In this document: positions 373 to 61,006 of the stretch, one piece after another
Position numbering within the stretch: position 1 is the stretch's first letter
Layout of the letters: each line of letters begins with the position of its first letter
Notes under the pieces: model-generated
Databases searched by the model: none
What the model saw: the letters and a program-made list of their open reading frames with translations, nothing else
What the model was told of the DNA's origin: nothing
Assembly: GCA_963921795.1 (NCBI GenBank)
Contig: OY997650.1
Location: 22,580,963 to 22,644,962 of the forward strand
Origin: Nannobrachium achirus
Lineage: Eukaryota > Chordata > Actinopteri > Myctophiformes > Myctophidae
Length of the DNA stretch: 64,000 nt
Direction: 5' to 3'
Program-made: the position numbers and the translations under genes

Positions 373-850
373 CAGGGGTCTTCAACGTTTTCAGGCCCAA
401 GGACCCCTTAGTTTAAAGAAACAGTTGAAGCAGGGACCCCCACAACCTGTTCATAGATTCCATGTAGTTTGATCATTTGACAGCACAATCATCAGTGTAT
501 TTTGGATCATGCCAATATGTGTTTTCAGATATGTAACCACTTGAACCGTCAATACTTAATAAACATGACCTTTCACTCTGTACTTAGTGTGCTCTTTTTC
601 CCCTCTACACCAAAGCTATTCGCCAAAAATATACGATCTACAAGCTCACAATGCCTCGCAGCACGAGGCGTTGTGAAGGTTGTAGATCTGCTATTTTTGG
701 CTAAAGTTCTCAGAATATGGATGCGAGGGTTCAAGTGTTTAATATAAAAAAGGAGGAAAAAAAGTTTCTATCAACAAAGATTTGGAGGACCCCCTGTAGT
801 AACTCTGAGGACCTCCTAGGAGTCCCGGACCCCCTTGTTGAAGACCCATG
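373..850 (+). mobile_element. hAT-like MITE, family A, copy 1
   Basis: Starts CAGGGGTCTTCAACG and ends GTTGAAGACCCATG, an inverted pair. The flanks catttaca and atttagca look like a worn 8-bp duplication. It is non-coding. Subterminal ggacccc motifs occur at both ends, and the shared palindrome lies in the middle (622-701). The same family recurs at 21370 (opposite orientation) and 47563. Confidence 0.85.
622..701. repeat. Shared palindrome, copy in A1
   Basis: Collar GCCAAAAATA pairs with TATTTTTGGC. The arms GATCTACAAGCTCAC and the return arm are slightly worn. The apex is CCTCGCAGCACGAGG. Confidence 0.9.
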
Positions 851-857
851 ATTTAGC

Positions 858-1160
858 ACTCCACATATTTTGGTCCCTCATTCTCCATGGATCTGATCGG
901 CATCGCTGAAGTAAACGCGGGCAACCCGTTTATCTGCGTTTATTGACGCGGCTCTGTGCGGGACGCTGTCGATTCAGATTGGCCAATCACAGCAGAGAGA
1001 GAGAGAGACGTACAGGGAGCAGGGAGGCGAGGCGAGGGGTCGGAGGTCAGGTTCAAGGGCAGCAGGTCAGGAGGTCAGGTTCAAGGACGTAGACACACCT
1101 GTGGTGTGTGTTGCTTTTACACCATAGACGCACGCATTCACACACTGTTCTTACAGAAAC
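858..1160. other. No gene seen
   Basis: Moderately GC-rich. The only structure noticed is a 17-bp direct repeat, GGAGGTCAGGTTCAAGG at 1042 and again (16 bp) at about 1070. Confidence 0.5.
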
Positions 1161-1164
1161 GCAC

Positions 1165-1258
1165 ACACACATACACACACATACACACACACACGTACGT
1201 ACATAAACAAACACACACACACACACACACACACACACACACACACACACACACACAC
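1165..1258. repeat. (AC)n microsatellite
   Basis: AC run with a few interruptions at its left end. Confidence 0.95.
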
Positions 1259-1461
1259 TTATACACGCGCATACTTACACACACACACGCTCGTTTCATT
1301 CCCGCATTCCTGTCTGGCCGTTGGCTGCTCTCGCCTCTTAATTGGGTTTGAAGGAGACACCTCGTAAACAAAAGACAGTTTAAGAGCAACAAACAAAGGC
1401 GCGTCTTGTCGTTTATTATCGTGCCTGCGTTCCTTCCTCCTACCGTTCCTCCATGGTCATA

Positions 1462-1498
1462 GGAGAGAGAGAGAGAGAGAGAGAGAGAGAGAGAGAGA
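1462..1498. repeat. (GA)n microsatellite
   Basis: Perfect GA run. Confidence 0.95.
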
Positions 1499-1636
1499 CT
1501 TCTTCTCCTTCCCTTCTCCCCATCTAACCCCAACCTCTCTCTCTCTAAGCTTTCAGCAGCCCATTATTTTCTGCTACTGAGCCTCACGATCAATACACAC
1601 AACACACCACACATCTGATGGGTTGGGGGGGGGGAC

Positions 1637-1689
1637 GAGAGAGAGAGAGAGAGAGAGAGAGAGAGAGAGAGAGAGAGAGAGAGAGAGAG
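1637..1689. repeat. (GA)n microsatellite
   Basis: Perfect GA run preceded by a G tract. Confidence 0.95.
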
Positions 1690-1721
1690 GAAAGGGGGAA
1701 ATAAGGAAACGTCGTGCACAT

Positions 1722-1981
1722 CACACACACACACACACACACACACACACACAGGCAGACGCATGCAGATGCCACACACACACATAACATGTGAAGGAAA
1801 ACACTCACACATGCATGCAAACATACAGTCATACACAGGCATATAAATTCACAATCTGAAACACACACACAAACGTGCACACACACACACACACACACAC
1901 ACACACACACACACACACACACACACACACACACACACACACACACACACACACACACACACACACACACACACACACACA
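1722..1981. repeat. (AC)n cluster
   Basis: AC runs at 1722-1753 and 1879-1981 (over 100 bp, uninterrupted), joined by AC-rich spacer. Confidence 0.95.
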
Positions 1982-2078
1982 CCCTCTCACACCATCCCCT
2001 TGCCTCTCTGCCCTGTGCCCTCATATGAATATTGGCTTTCCCCTAACTCATCCATGTCACCATTGTCAGGGTGCAGTC

Positions 2079-2210
2079 TGTGTGTGTGTGTGTGTGTGTG
2101 TGTGTGTGTGTGTGTGTGTGTGTGTGCGTGCGCACACCCACGTGCATGTGTGTGTGTGTGTGTGTCCGTCCAGGCACCCCTCATTTGCATGTGTGTGTGT
2201 GTGTGTGTTA
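2079..2210. repeat. (TG)n cluster
   Basis: TG runs at 2079-2126, 2147-2164 and 2190-2208. They face the AC runs at 1879-1981 and 2325-2416, so the region could form long AC/TG hairpins. Confidence 0.95.
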
Positions 2211-58355: not shown

Positions 58356-58362
58356 GCGTACA

Positions 58363-58571
58363 TACACACACACACACGCACATACACACGCACGCACGCA
58401 CGCACGCACGCACGCACGCACGCACGCACGCACGCACGCACGCACGCACGCACGCACGCACGCACGCACGCACGCACGCACGCACACACACACACACACA
58501 CACACACACACACACACACACACACACACACACACACACACACACACACACACACACACACACACACACAG
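58363..58571. repeat. (ACGC)n-(AC)n compound tract
   Basis: ACGC units 58389-58483 (about 24), then AC 58484-58570. The block border is sharp. Confidence 0.98.
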
Positions 58572-59091
58572 GCTCACTCAGTCAGACCCATAGCTCATCT
58601 TAGAGTGCCCTGCATCTACAGTATGGCCGCTCTGACGACGATGCTTTTAACAGCGCTTCTGCAACAACAGAACAGCCTCCCATTCAGGTACTGTAGCCCC
58701 AACGCCCCGCACAGCGCCCTCCAAACACCACCCCTCTCCTCCCATAAGTGCCTCGCCGTCAATGGACATGCAAATAGGTTCACGCAGTTAGGAGCCTTTG
58801 TTTGGGGGCTCTCGGTCTGAAGAGACATCACGAGGGCCTGTTCTTTTGTCCCCATCTCGTCTCGTCTTCTCACTAACCCTTCCTCCTCCTCCTCCTCCTC
58901 TGTGGAAGGAAAACCCGAGTTTTGCCTCTCTGTGGCCATTGTTTGTGAGAAGAAGGTTCCCTCTTACACAGATGAGATGTGGCTTTCAGTCTGTCTGTGT
59001 TCAAGGTTGTACTTTATTGTTGCCTCTTTTGTACAGGTACATAAGAGTAAAACTTGGGTTTGTTTGGGATCCTTTAGACAATGCAGTGGTA

Positions 59092-59342
59092 TATATCGTC
59101 ACTGTCGGGCAGAAACCTTGTATCTCCAAGTTTAAAATGTGTATGTTTTTTCGCAAAGTAAAGCCCTGCTTCAGCATACACGGCCGTCGCGCAAAGGTAG
59201 TGAAACAGCTGATCTACAAGCACACAGGTGTTGTGTGCTTGTAGATCGGCTGTTTTCACTAGTTTAAATCATTTTTAAAATGTTAAAATGCAAAACAAAC
59301 AGGTTTTGGACACACAGGGTTTTCACCCGACAATGACGATAA
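59092..59342 (+). mobile_element. Family K inner element, copy 4
   Basis: TATATCGTCACTGTCGGGC to CACCCGACAATGACGATA, an inverted pair enclosing a K-type palindrome. No outer K termini. Confidence 0.85.
59199..59260. repeat. Shared palindrome, copy in K4
   Basis: AGTGAAACAGCTGATC / GATCGGCTGTTTTCACT, arms CAAGCACACAG / TGTTGTGTGCTTG. Confidence 0.9.
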
Positions 59343-59376
59343 TAACAGCAAACAACAGGAAAAAAAGGAAAAACCT

Positions 59377-59462
59377 GTGTGTGTTTGTGTGTGTTTGTGT
59401 GTGTTTGTGTGTGTGTGCGTGCGTGCGTGCGTGCGTGCGTGCGTGCGTGCGTGCGTGCGTGT
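59377..59462. repeat. (GT)n-(GCGT)n tract
   Basis: TGTGTGTTTG units, then GCGT units. Confidence 0.95.
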
Positions 59463-59464
59463 GA

Positions 59465-60000
59465 TGGAACACAGTGTTCCTATTGCCTGCCTTTTTATCC
59501 ATGTAAATATGTTTGACCCCTTGACTGCTAAACACAGGGCTCTATTAGAGTGCGCCCAGCCAGCTCACTTATCTCCAATAATTAAAACGCAGTAATGCCG
59601 TGTCAGTGTTTCGGACACAATATCGCCGCTTCACACAAACAGGTGGCTGCATCGTCTCCAATTACACAGGCTATATATCCATTTCAGATGGTTAATTGAA
59701 AAGGTCGGATCGCGGAGCACGGTGGAGATAATTTCTCTGGATACCAGAAAGTATTTTTTTTTGCATTATTATGAGTCATTTTAGACCACTTTAATGGGAG
59801 CTACAAAAAAAAAGTCAGAAAAAAACAAAACACCTGGCATAAAGAGATTGAACCAGCTAAAAGCAGAGGACATTCAGGTGAAATGATGCTGTCAGAGCAG
59901 TGCACAGCTTTTTGCGGTCCTGATGCTGTTTGTTAGGAACATTAACCAGATTCACTTACTGGCACTATGAGACTGGGTCAGTACAACTCATAAAAAACAA
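59465..60000. other. Possible conserved non-coding stretch
   Basis: 59560-59720 holds TAATTAAA, CAGGTGG, CAGATGG and TTAATTGA, motifs of homeodomain and bHLH proteins, in non-repetitive sequence. No gene seen. The suggestion is weak. Confidence 0.3.
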
Positions 60001-60006
60001 ACAAAC

Positions 60007-60108
60007 GCACGCACGCACGCGCGCACGCACGCACGCACGCACGCACGCACGCACGCACGCACGCACGCACGCACGCACACACACACACACACACACACAC
60101 ACACACAC
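60007..60108. repeat. (ACGC)n-(AC)n compound tract
   Basis: GCAC units to 60077, AC to 60107. Confidence 0.97.
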
Positions 60109-60641
60109 CTATTTAGGAGAGACAGGAGGCCATCAGTGGTACAGTGATGACATAATGCATTATACTAATAAGTCATAGTAATTGTGGGTTCTCCGGGGCT
60201 GTTCCACTAGTTATGGAAATGGTTGCATGCAGAGGTCTAAGGTGACCAGGAGGAAATGAGCTCTTACATTGTGGGCCACTACCACTACCAGCACAGACTG
60301 CTGTTCTCTATGTTGACTGACATGCTAAAACTATTGGTAGTTGATTAAGGAAAATAGAAAAAGCTGGCTCATTGCGTAATTGCATTGTAAGGCGTGCATC
60401 ATCTTAATTTTTTAAGGTGTGATATTTGCATTGCCTTAATTGCTGTACCATTCTTAAATAACAAAAATGTGACATGATTCCTTTATTTATTAAATCAAAT
60501 ACATTTCAATTGTCATGTTAATTATAGATAGGTACAGTTATAGTGTGACATTGTAAACTATTGGTCAAACATAGATTTGACCAATAGCACATTGTCATTA
60601 TGATCATAAACATGAAGAGAAAACAAATGGTTATTTTAGAG

Positions 60642-61006
60642 CAGTGGTTCTCAACCTTTTCAGGAGGCGACCCCCAAAATAATCATATTTTAACTGTGGA
60701 CCCCCCACCCTGACGAGCACTAAGAGTTGAGGCACTACATTTTGTATAACACGGTTCTATTGTGAAAATAGCCGATCTACATGCTCACAACGCCTCGAGA
60801 TTTGGCCAATGTTTATTTGTCATTTCAGAGGTATTAAAAAGTCCTTAAACTGTCCCAGATACCCTCTATACACGTTAACTTTATGTTGGTTTGTTTACTG
60901 TTTTTAGAGAGAAAACAATGTTGCACATTAAGTGAATCATCTGTGGACCCCCCAAAATAATTTGGGGACCTCCCTGGGGGTCCCGACCCACAGGTTGAAA
61001 ACCATG
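60642..61006 (-). mobile_element. hAT-like MITE, family B, copy 5
   Basis: Starts CAGTGGTTCTCAACC and ends GGTTGAAAACCATG. Flanks ttttagag and ttttaaag (one mismatch). The palindrome is cut after its left half (60762-60798). Confidence 0.94.
60762..60798. repeat. Shared palindrome, left half, in B5
   Basis: GAAAATAGCCGATC, CATGCTCACAACGCCTCG, then directly the B flank. Confidence 0.88.

Follow-up and report, generated by a model that had tools for sequence, protein, structure and literature searches.

Why does the same hairpin recur in many different miniature transposons? The question is raised by a stretch of 64,000 nucleotides from Nannobrachium achirus (Myctophidae; assembly GCA_963921795.1, contig OY997650.1, positions 22,580,963 to 22,644,962; hereafter the window). 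In it, an earlier examination of the letters alone (the sequence-only reading) had noticed over 40 copies of one palindrome in at least ten unrelated families of miniature inverted-repeat transposable elements (MITEs). We found that this palindrome, P, entered at least two groups of MITEs by nesting: a TA-flanked element, F6i, inserted into hAT-type MITEs, and a TTAA-flanked element, Q, inserted into the hAT-type family F1. What travels is thus a whole MITE, some 150–250 bp in length, and not the bare palindrome.

P is 71 bp long, with the layout AAAATAGC(A/C)GATCTACAAGCTCACAACG...CGTTGTGAGCTTGTAGATC(T/G)GCTATTTT and a tip of a few bases, and its recurrence in the window is far above chance. 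The outer half-arm AAAATAGCMGATCTAC has 69 matches (≤3 mismatches) against 0.89 expected, a count reached by 0 of 100 shuffles; the second half-arm AAGCTCACAACGC has 46 against 1.39 expected, and the joined 29-nt arm has 64 matches at ≥21/29. These counts confirm the recurrence seen by the sequence-only reading, which the span of the copies (626–60793) also fits. Its figure of over 40 copies compares with approximately 40 here, where F3 elements hold two P each, in inverted arms, which inflates copy counts; 27 two-armed copies were tabulated. DNA hairpin folding of six copies gave −21.5 to −35 kcal/mol (z −7 to −14). At gathering score, Rfam gave no match in the window, and no tRNA is present there; the window thus holds neither a known RNA or tRNA hairpin that would account for P nor a tRNA-like (Pol III) head of the kind that defines CORE-SINE retroposons (SINE, short interspersed nuclear element). 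No prokaryotic, viral or phage relatives were found with the patterns used.

P is equally conspicuous outside the window. Half-arm matches at ≤2 mismatches numbered 330,277 (165,681 forward, 164,596 reverse) in the 1,658,514,493 bases (1.66 Gb) searched, and the reversed control gave 0. This is the whole-genome count that the sequence-only reading had proposed, and it shows that P is not rare elsewhere. A larger sample of 314 kb was assembled from the window and 25 further 10-kb stretches, whose positions were fixed in advance (L-numbers denote loci outside the window). P was found in 22 of the 25 stretches, and 123 arms at ≥22/29 in the sampled stretches extrapolate to about 0.8 million arms genome-wide; the copy number in the genome is probably in the hundreds of thousands. 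Local duplications or inversions on the kilobase scale, each with two copies of one P context, were seen at L014, L018, L020 and L026.

The borders of P are abrupt on both sides, at the step from R to AAAATAGC. Across 16 contexts, mean pairwise identity is 0.70–0.96 over P positions 1–8 and drops to 0.24–0.39 between −2 and −12; the base just outside P, at −1, is by weight a purine in 15 of the 16 contexts. Most families have GCC in one arm and GCA in the other, in an orientation that is constant within the family in nearly all copies (the exceptions, 60795 and 38777, are both F5). This asymmetry indicates that the P copies share an oriented ancestor. Each family has P at a single fixed place, and P variants group by family (0.088 within, 0.128 between; 0/500 permutations, 51 arms), so that P appears to have been acquired once by each family and to have spread with it. 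Arm changes are often paired: both sides are altered at 11 of 33 pairs, and the covariation score was matched by 0 of 500 shuffles, which overstate the significance because the 15 rows, including four F3, two F3z and two F6, are partly related. Inside a family, P arms have not diverged faster than their flanks (0.033 and 0.099, a comparison that favours the arms through the arm-picking procedure and flank indels). Odd arm variants common to different families at the same positions, GACG at 27121, 12054 and 38752 and GCAT at 20697 and 28711, are unexplained.

The outer hosts of P are mostly hAT-type MITEs with 8-bp duplications, and their ends differ between families: CAGGGGTCTTCAACA in F1, CAGTGGTG in F2, CAGGGGYGTC in F3, CAGTGTTG in F4, YAGTGGTTCTCAACC in F5, CAGGGACGTGC in F6o, TAGGGATGGGACG in F8 and TAGGGCTGTCACGATA in F9, the last of which lies outside the window together with further hAT hosts. 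Target site duplications (TSDs) of 8/8 occur in copies of F1, F3, F5, F6o, F8, F9 and F4 (F9 and F4 at L024 and L031); F2 has 7/8. With CAGNG/TAGGG ends, 8-bp duplications and lengths of a few hundred bp, these hosts match hAT-derived MITEs. In ordinary hAT MITE families, however, an internal hairpin common to each other or to TTAA or TA elements is not expected.

F6i begins with TA followed by TCGTCACTGTCGGGCAGAAACC. It was found with its 22-nt ends and TA on both sides at five independent sites, as is typical of TA-type MITEs (window 51845 and 59096; L023; L030:2986; L024). The L024 copy sits inside a hAT host (L024:197-746) with the 8-bp TSD GACTATAA, and a second copy of this host is present at L012:8504-9425 (TSD 8/8). 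F6i is also fixed inside a second hAT family, F6o. One F6i copy, L023:8271-8459, lacks P by an almost exact loss; this could be a deletion and is less likely the original state.

Q is 150–201 bp long, with the common end CCACTTGAACC, and behaves as a TTAA-type element. TTAA flanks both ends at L012, L026, L007, L005 and L023, and by eye at the Q-like copies of L001 and L014, while L021 is Q-like without intact TTAA. Around Q, hAT ends are visible at L012 (TSD 8/8), L007 and L003 (7/8). At L004 the Q end lies beside a different flank, with 34/34 letters from TTAA at one end only, and the arms are alike far past P (44/57 aligned, 0/1000 shuffles), which makes Q look like a long palindrome tipped by P. 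In an inverted-repeat scan of 157 P loci, TTAA ranked first among flanking tetranucleotides. F2-type flanks continue into TTAACCACTT, which is 3–4 mismatches from the Q end. Nesting accounts for P in F6o, the L024/L012 host and F1, and perhaps in F2 and F8. The locus L010:7490 was considered as an F1 host without Q and rejected, being F1-like at its right end only. The nested and free carriers in the window are as follows.

366..855, minus strand: F1 copy; P at 626–697.
21370..21808, plus strand: F1 hAT-type MITE; TSD CTTCAGTG 8/8; carries nested Q and P.
21457..21665, plus strand: Q, the inner element of F1; its ends are TTAGCCACGTGAACC and TTAACCACTTAAACC; in this copy one of the TTAA sites is mutated.
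21502..21572, plus strand: P in F1; arms GCA / GCC; among the hairpin-folded copies.
26823..27386, plus strand: F6o hAT-type MITE; TSD ATAAGACA 8/8; nested F6i.
26962..27219, plus strand: F6i in F6o; left TA, right TA not clean.
27066..27136, plus strand: P in F6i; among the hairpin-folded copies.
28459..28933, minus strand: second F6o copy; F6i remnant; P at 28656–28726; TSD 6/8.
51845..51993, plus strand: F6i outside F6o; TA on both sides; P arm at 51884–51912.
59096..59339, plus strand: F6i outside F6o; TA on both sides; P at 59202–59256.

The contrast drawn by the sequence-only reading between 8-bp duplications and TTAA ends is one of layers: the duplications belong to the outer hosts, and TTAA to the inner, nested Q. 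Its suggestion that MITEs serve as landing sites and vehicles holds for the P-bearing F6i and Q, but not for the bare palindrome.

How far P extends among hAT-type elements was estimated from short hAT-type terminal inverted repeats (TIRs; CAGNG/TAGGG). The 314-kb sample yielded 37 candidates, of which a few look spurious on inspection, and P was present in 20. A self-comparison of the window, with P and simple repeats masked, returned eight multi-copy TIR-type families, every one with P in at least one copy, and two P-less pairs, one of them resembling the tail of a long interspersed nuclear element (LINE) and one at 54433/54637. Universality of P in DNA transposons fits these eight families and was rejected by the larger sample. 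Many hosts do carry P, as the sequence-only reading held; its count of at least ten unrelated families compares with eight multi-copy ones, among which F1 and F8 may be kin on one side. No open reading frame of ≥150 codons lies wholly inside the listed hosts, and one (58792–59244) extends into F6i. An outer motif common to all families, CTGATTTATACTTGGCTG, was also considered and rejected: most flanks were not above background, and p<0.02 was reached by F2L, F3zR, F4R, F6R and F7 (uncorrected, 38 tests). The remaining hosts and P copies of the window are listed here.

5300..5725, plus strand: F2 hAT-type MITE; TSD 7/8; P at 5544–5614.
10023..10536, plus strand: F3 hAT-type MITE; TSD CTGGTCTG 8/8; P at 10372–10442.
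11999..12069, plus strand: P in an F4-like element, by alignment.
14113..14259, plus strand: the 14185 element, an imperfect palindrome over its whole length; ends GGCTGATTTATACTT; central P at 14150–14220.
20658..20712, plus strand: P in F4.
24040..25319, plus strand: F4 hAT-type element; TSD 7/8; holds an insertion; P arm at 25062–25090.
29619..29689, plus strand: P without a recognised MITE host; equals the consensus at 22 scored positions; follows an AT-rich tail, which we take to be SINE-like.
30652..30879, plus strand: P-less F5 hAT-type relative; TSD 7/8.
31203..31651, plus strand: F5 hAT-type MITE; TSD CTCTACAT 8/8; P at 31469–31529.
33630..34086, minus strand: F3 element; TSD TTCACAAA 8/8; shortened P at 33722–33758.
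40246..40640, plus strand: F8 hAT-type MITE; TSD TAACCAAG 8/8; P arm at 40496–40524; left interior resembles F1, on one side only.
44551..44621, plus strand: P in a second F8 copy.
47215..47443, plus strand: F3z relative without P; joined site.
48578..49117, plus strand: F3 inner element; two P (48604–48669, 49021–49091) in inverted arms.
52362..52900, plus strand: F3 hAT-type MITE; TSD CCTCTCTG 8/8; two P (52433–52503, 52741–52811).
53538..54030, minus strand: F3 hAT-type MITE; TSD ATCTCTCC 8/8; two P (53613–53681, 53858–53887).
56353..56423, plus strand: P in an F5 copy; right flank unrelated.
60765..60793, plus strand: P half-arm in an F5 copy.

At 56353–56480, the left half of F5 and P are joined to the unrelated right flank, a possible hybrid. 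Two kinds of P-less repeat were noted in the window: similar nearby copies of one short repeat at 54433–54567 and 54637–54789, and a LINE-like 3′ tail with terminal TCAA repeats at 8768–8909 and 18921–19063.

Sites with and without P were compared in F5. Its flanks with a centre of ≤30 bases have 271 genome matches; in most of the 100 that were listed, remnants of P survive at one edge or at both (by eye), and none of the 100 shows a clean pre-insertion join. These listed copies mostly look like collapsed P, as expected of palindrome collapse, and the defined junction that the sequence-only reading had proposed to look for did not appear among them. The F5 copies C3:12335646 and C3:68073993 share an odd AAATATTTTCTATNTTGACAAT centre that is not obviously a P collapse. 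In the P-less F3z relative at 47215–47443, the flanks are joined at a T run. It was rejected as proof of a clean empty site, since slippage between TTTT runs gives an identical product; it is either a pre-P site or a slippage deletion.

Nesting leaves one thing unexplained: a single oriented hairpin, with covarying arms, is present in TTAA-, TA- and several hAT-type MITEs. Q, F6i and the hAT families F5, F9 and F4 have P in common and little else. Their flanks are unalignable, yet the divergence of P is about equally small whether families or copies are compared, from which it follows that P was kept, or kept alike, across founding events. We propose that small palindromic DNA transposons of several non-autonomous kinds have P as their conserved tip. 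Anatomy supports this picture for two kinds at least, F6i (with TA) and Q (with TTAA), which are found at other sites and also nested at fixed places in hAT-type MITEs; the latter then multiplied the composite with 8-bp duplications, and in this way the same hairpin came to lie inside otherwise unrelated families. P itself may be a cis-acting hairpin, for example a host-factor site or a structure favouring excision or amplification during replication. Source copies from which new families arise would retain it, whereas the copies they leave behind would drift and their centre collapse, and arm complementarity may be maintained by selection or hairpin-templated repair. To this explanation as a whole, nested P-tipped MITEs together with a cis-acting hairpin kept by successful source elements, we assign a probability of about 45%; we consider it the best available.

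Several results weigh against it. P is absent from 17 of the 37 hAT-like candidates. Symmetric arm variants number 10 against 4.1 expected, all of them at three family-fixed positions. F6i lacks a clean TA on one side within F6o (right side) and at L030:8146. A looser scan found TTAA-flanked repeats at 6/157 P loci and 16/471 random centres, which is no excess, and TA-flanked repeats at 19/157 and 41/471, a slight excess in which many rows are P arms. Because the TTAA count is not above random, the case for Q rests on its shared end sequence and the TTAA rank. F5, F6i, F9 and F4 are absent from the matches listed by models of the Q flanks, and a single Q insertion may be ancestral to all F1 copies. 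Kinship of F1 and F8 is weak: a flank model built from F1 only does not find F8 (E 1.4 and 20). On one side of P, the alignment of their consensus sequences was reached by 0/1000 shuffles and 1/3000 genomic decoys, but on the other side 120/3000 decoys scored as high. Low E-values for F8 and some Q-like copies came from a model that included these sequences and were inflated. As those values were not independent, support for the F1/F8 link comes from one side of the consensus alignment; for gapped alignments of this kind, percent identity does not discriminate (0.77 vs 0.71 in shuffles).

Could P instead have reached its hosts on its own, as a tiny mobile palindrome inserting without target duplication at the centres of existing palindromes? 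The recurrence of the same P ends across 16 contexts, which include single degraded copies, would fit such an element, as would the copy at 29619–29689 without a recognised host and the palindromic extension of 4–9 nt past P in copies of F1, F2, F4, F5, F6 and F8. However, that extension is 0 in other copies of F1, F2, F5 and F6, and 0–3 elsewhere, and the outer stems fall into subtypes that reappear in different families (GTG in F5, F6 and F9; CCA in Q; by eye), which points to descent and not to random targets. Only about six of the approximately 40 window copies are without a recognised host. The one fixed site per family, the variants that follow families and the lack of a clean join among the listed short-centre F5 copies speak against it as well, and we consider this origin improbable.

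Two further explanations concern how P stayed alike. If gene conversion or template switching passed the hairpin among MITEs already in place, this would make P far more alike between families than the flanks, as is observed, and would suit the GACG and GCAT variants. Yet the clustering of P variants by family does not favour ongoing exchange, and conversion tracts are not expected to end at the same base in every family, which leaves this route unlikely. The sequence-only reading had suggested a related process, exchange of MITE ends around the hairpin; the alignments lend it no support, showing no left/right family hybrid apart from 56388, where the right flank is unmatched. Alternatively, all P families might descend from a single ancient palindromic MITE whose other parts have diverged or been replaced, P being functionless. 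The shared GCC/GCA asymmetry, the similarity of F1 and F8 interiors on one side and the near match of TTAACCACTT beside F2-type flanks to the Q end are consistent with such an ancestor. Neutral descent, though, would wear down P as much as the flanks, the F1/F8 link is weak and the flanks of F5, F6i, F9 and F4 show no homology to Q. The common origin that the sequence-only reading named as an outcome that would refute it is hinted at on one side of F1/F8 and not shown for those four families. We regard neutral descent from one such element as quite unlikely.

A stronger form of the preferred explanation, in which P is kept by source elements as a cis-acting hairpin, makes it a transposable-element module shared by at least three mobilisation types (TTAA, TA and hAT) that raises the chance of amplification. 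We hold this to be rather doubtful; such a module would be the DNA-transposon counterpart of the SINE CORE domain. Zebrafish Angel elements are reportedly short inverted-repeat elements that form hairpins, for which a role of the hairpin in amplification has been proposed; they are said to be a single family, whereas P spans several. CORE-SINEs and SINEs with a conserved central domain (PMC3272025, PMC3403934) reportedly comprise many families with different ends around one central domain; these are retroposons, whereas P is a DNA hairpin in cut-and-paste type elements. Very divergent Sirevirus elements keep palindromic non-coding motifs that have been likened to cis-acting activators, but these are plant LTR (long terminal repeat) retrotransposons, with the motifs within one genus, while P occurs in several DNA-transposon types (PMC2829016). 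Among teleosts, gadMor-hAT-1784 of Atlantic cod comprises palindromic MITEs of hAT origin that contain internal inverted repeats and are nested in complex ways; the part of that report available to us describes one family and a subfamily, at inversion breakpoints, and mentions no hairpin shared across families (PMC12368964). None of six P arm strings was found in the open-access papers searched, and no title listed on palindromic fish, hAT or TTAA MITEs or on shared-core MITEs describes P, in a search that left subscription journals mostly outside.

MITE bursts, in which a few short copies amplify to many thousands, are poorly explained. A single hairpin kept across different ends and targets would suggest that such elements need some common cis feature besides their TIRs, one that could be put to the test, and nesting shows how a mini-transposon can gain new transposases by riding inside another. 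At the extrapolated number of arms, P would rank among the main sequence motifs of this genome and would promote hairpin-driven instability.

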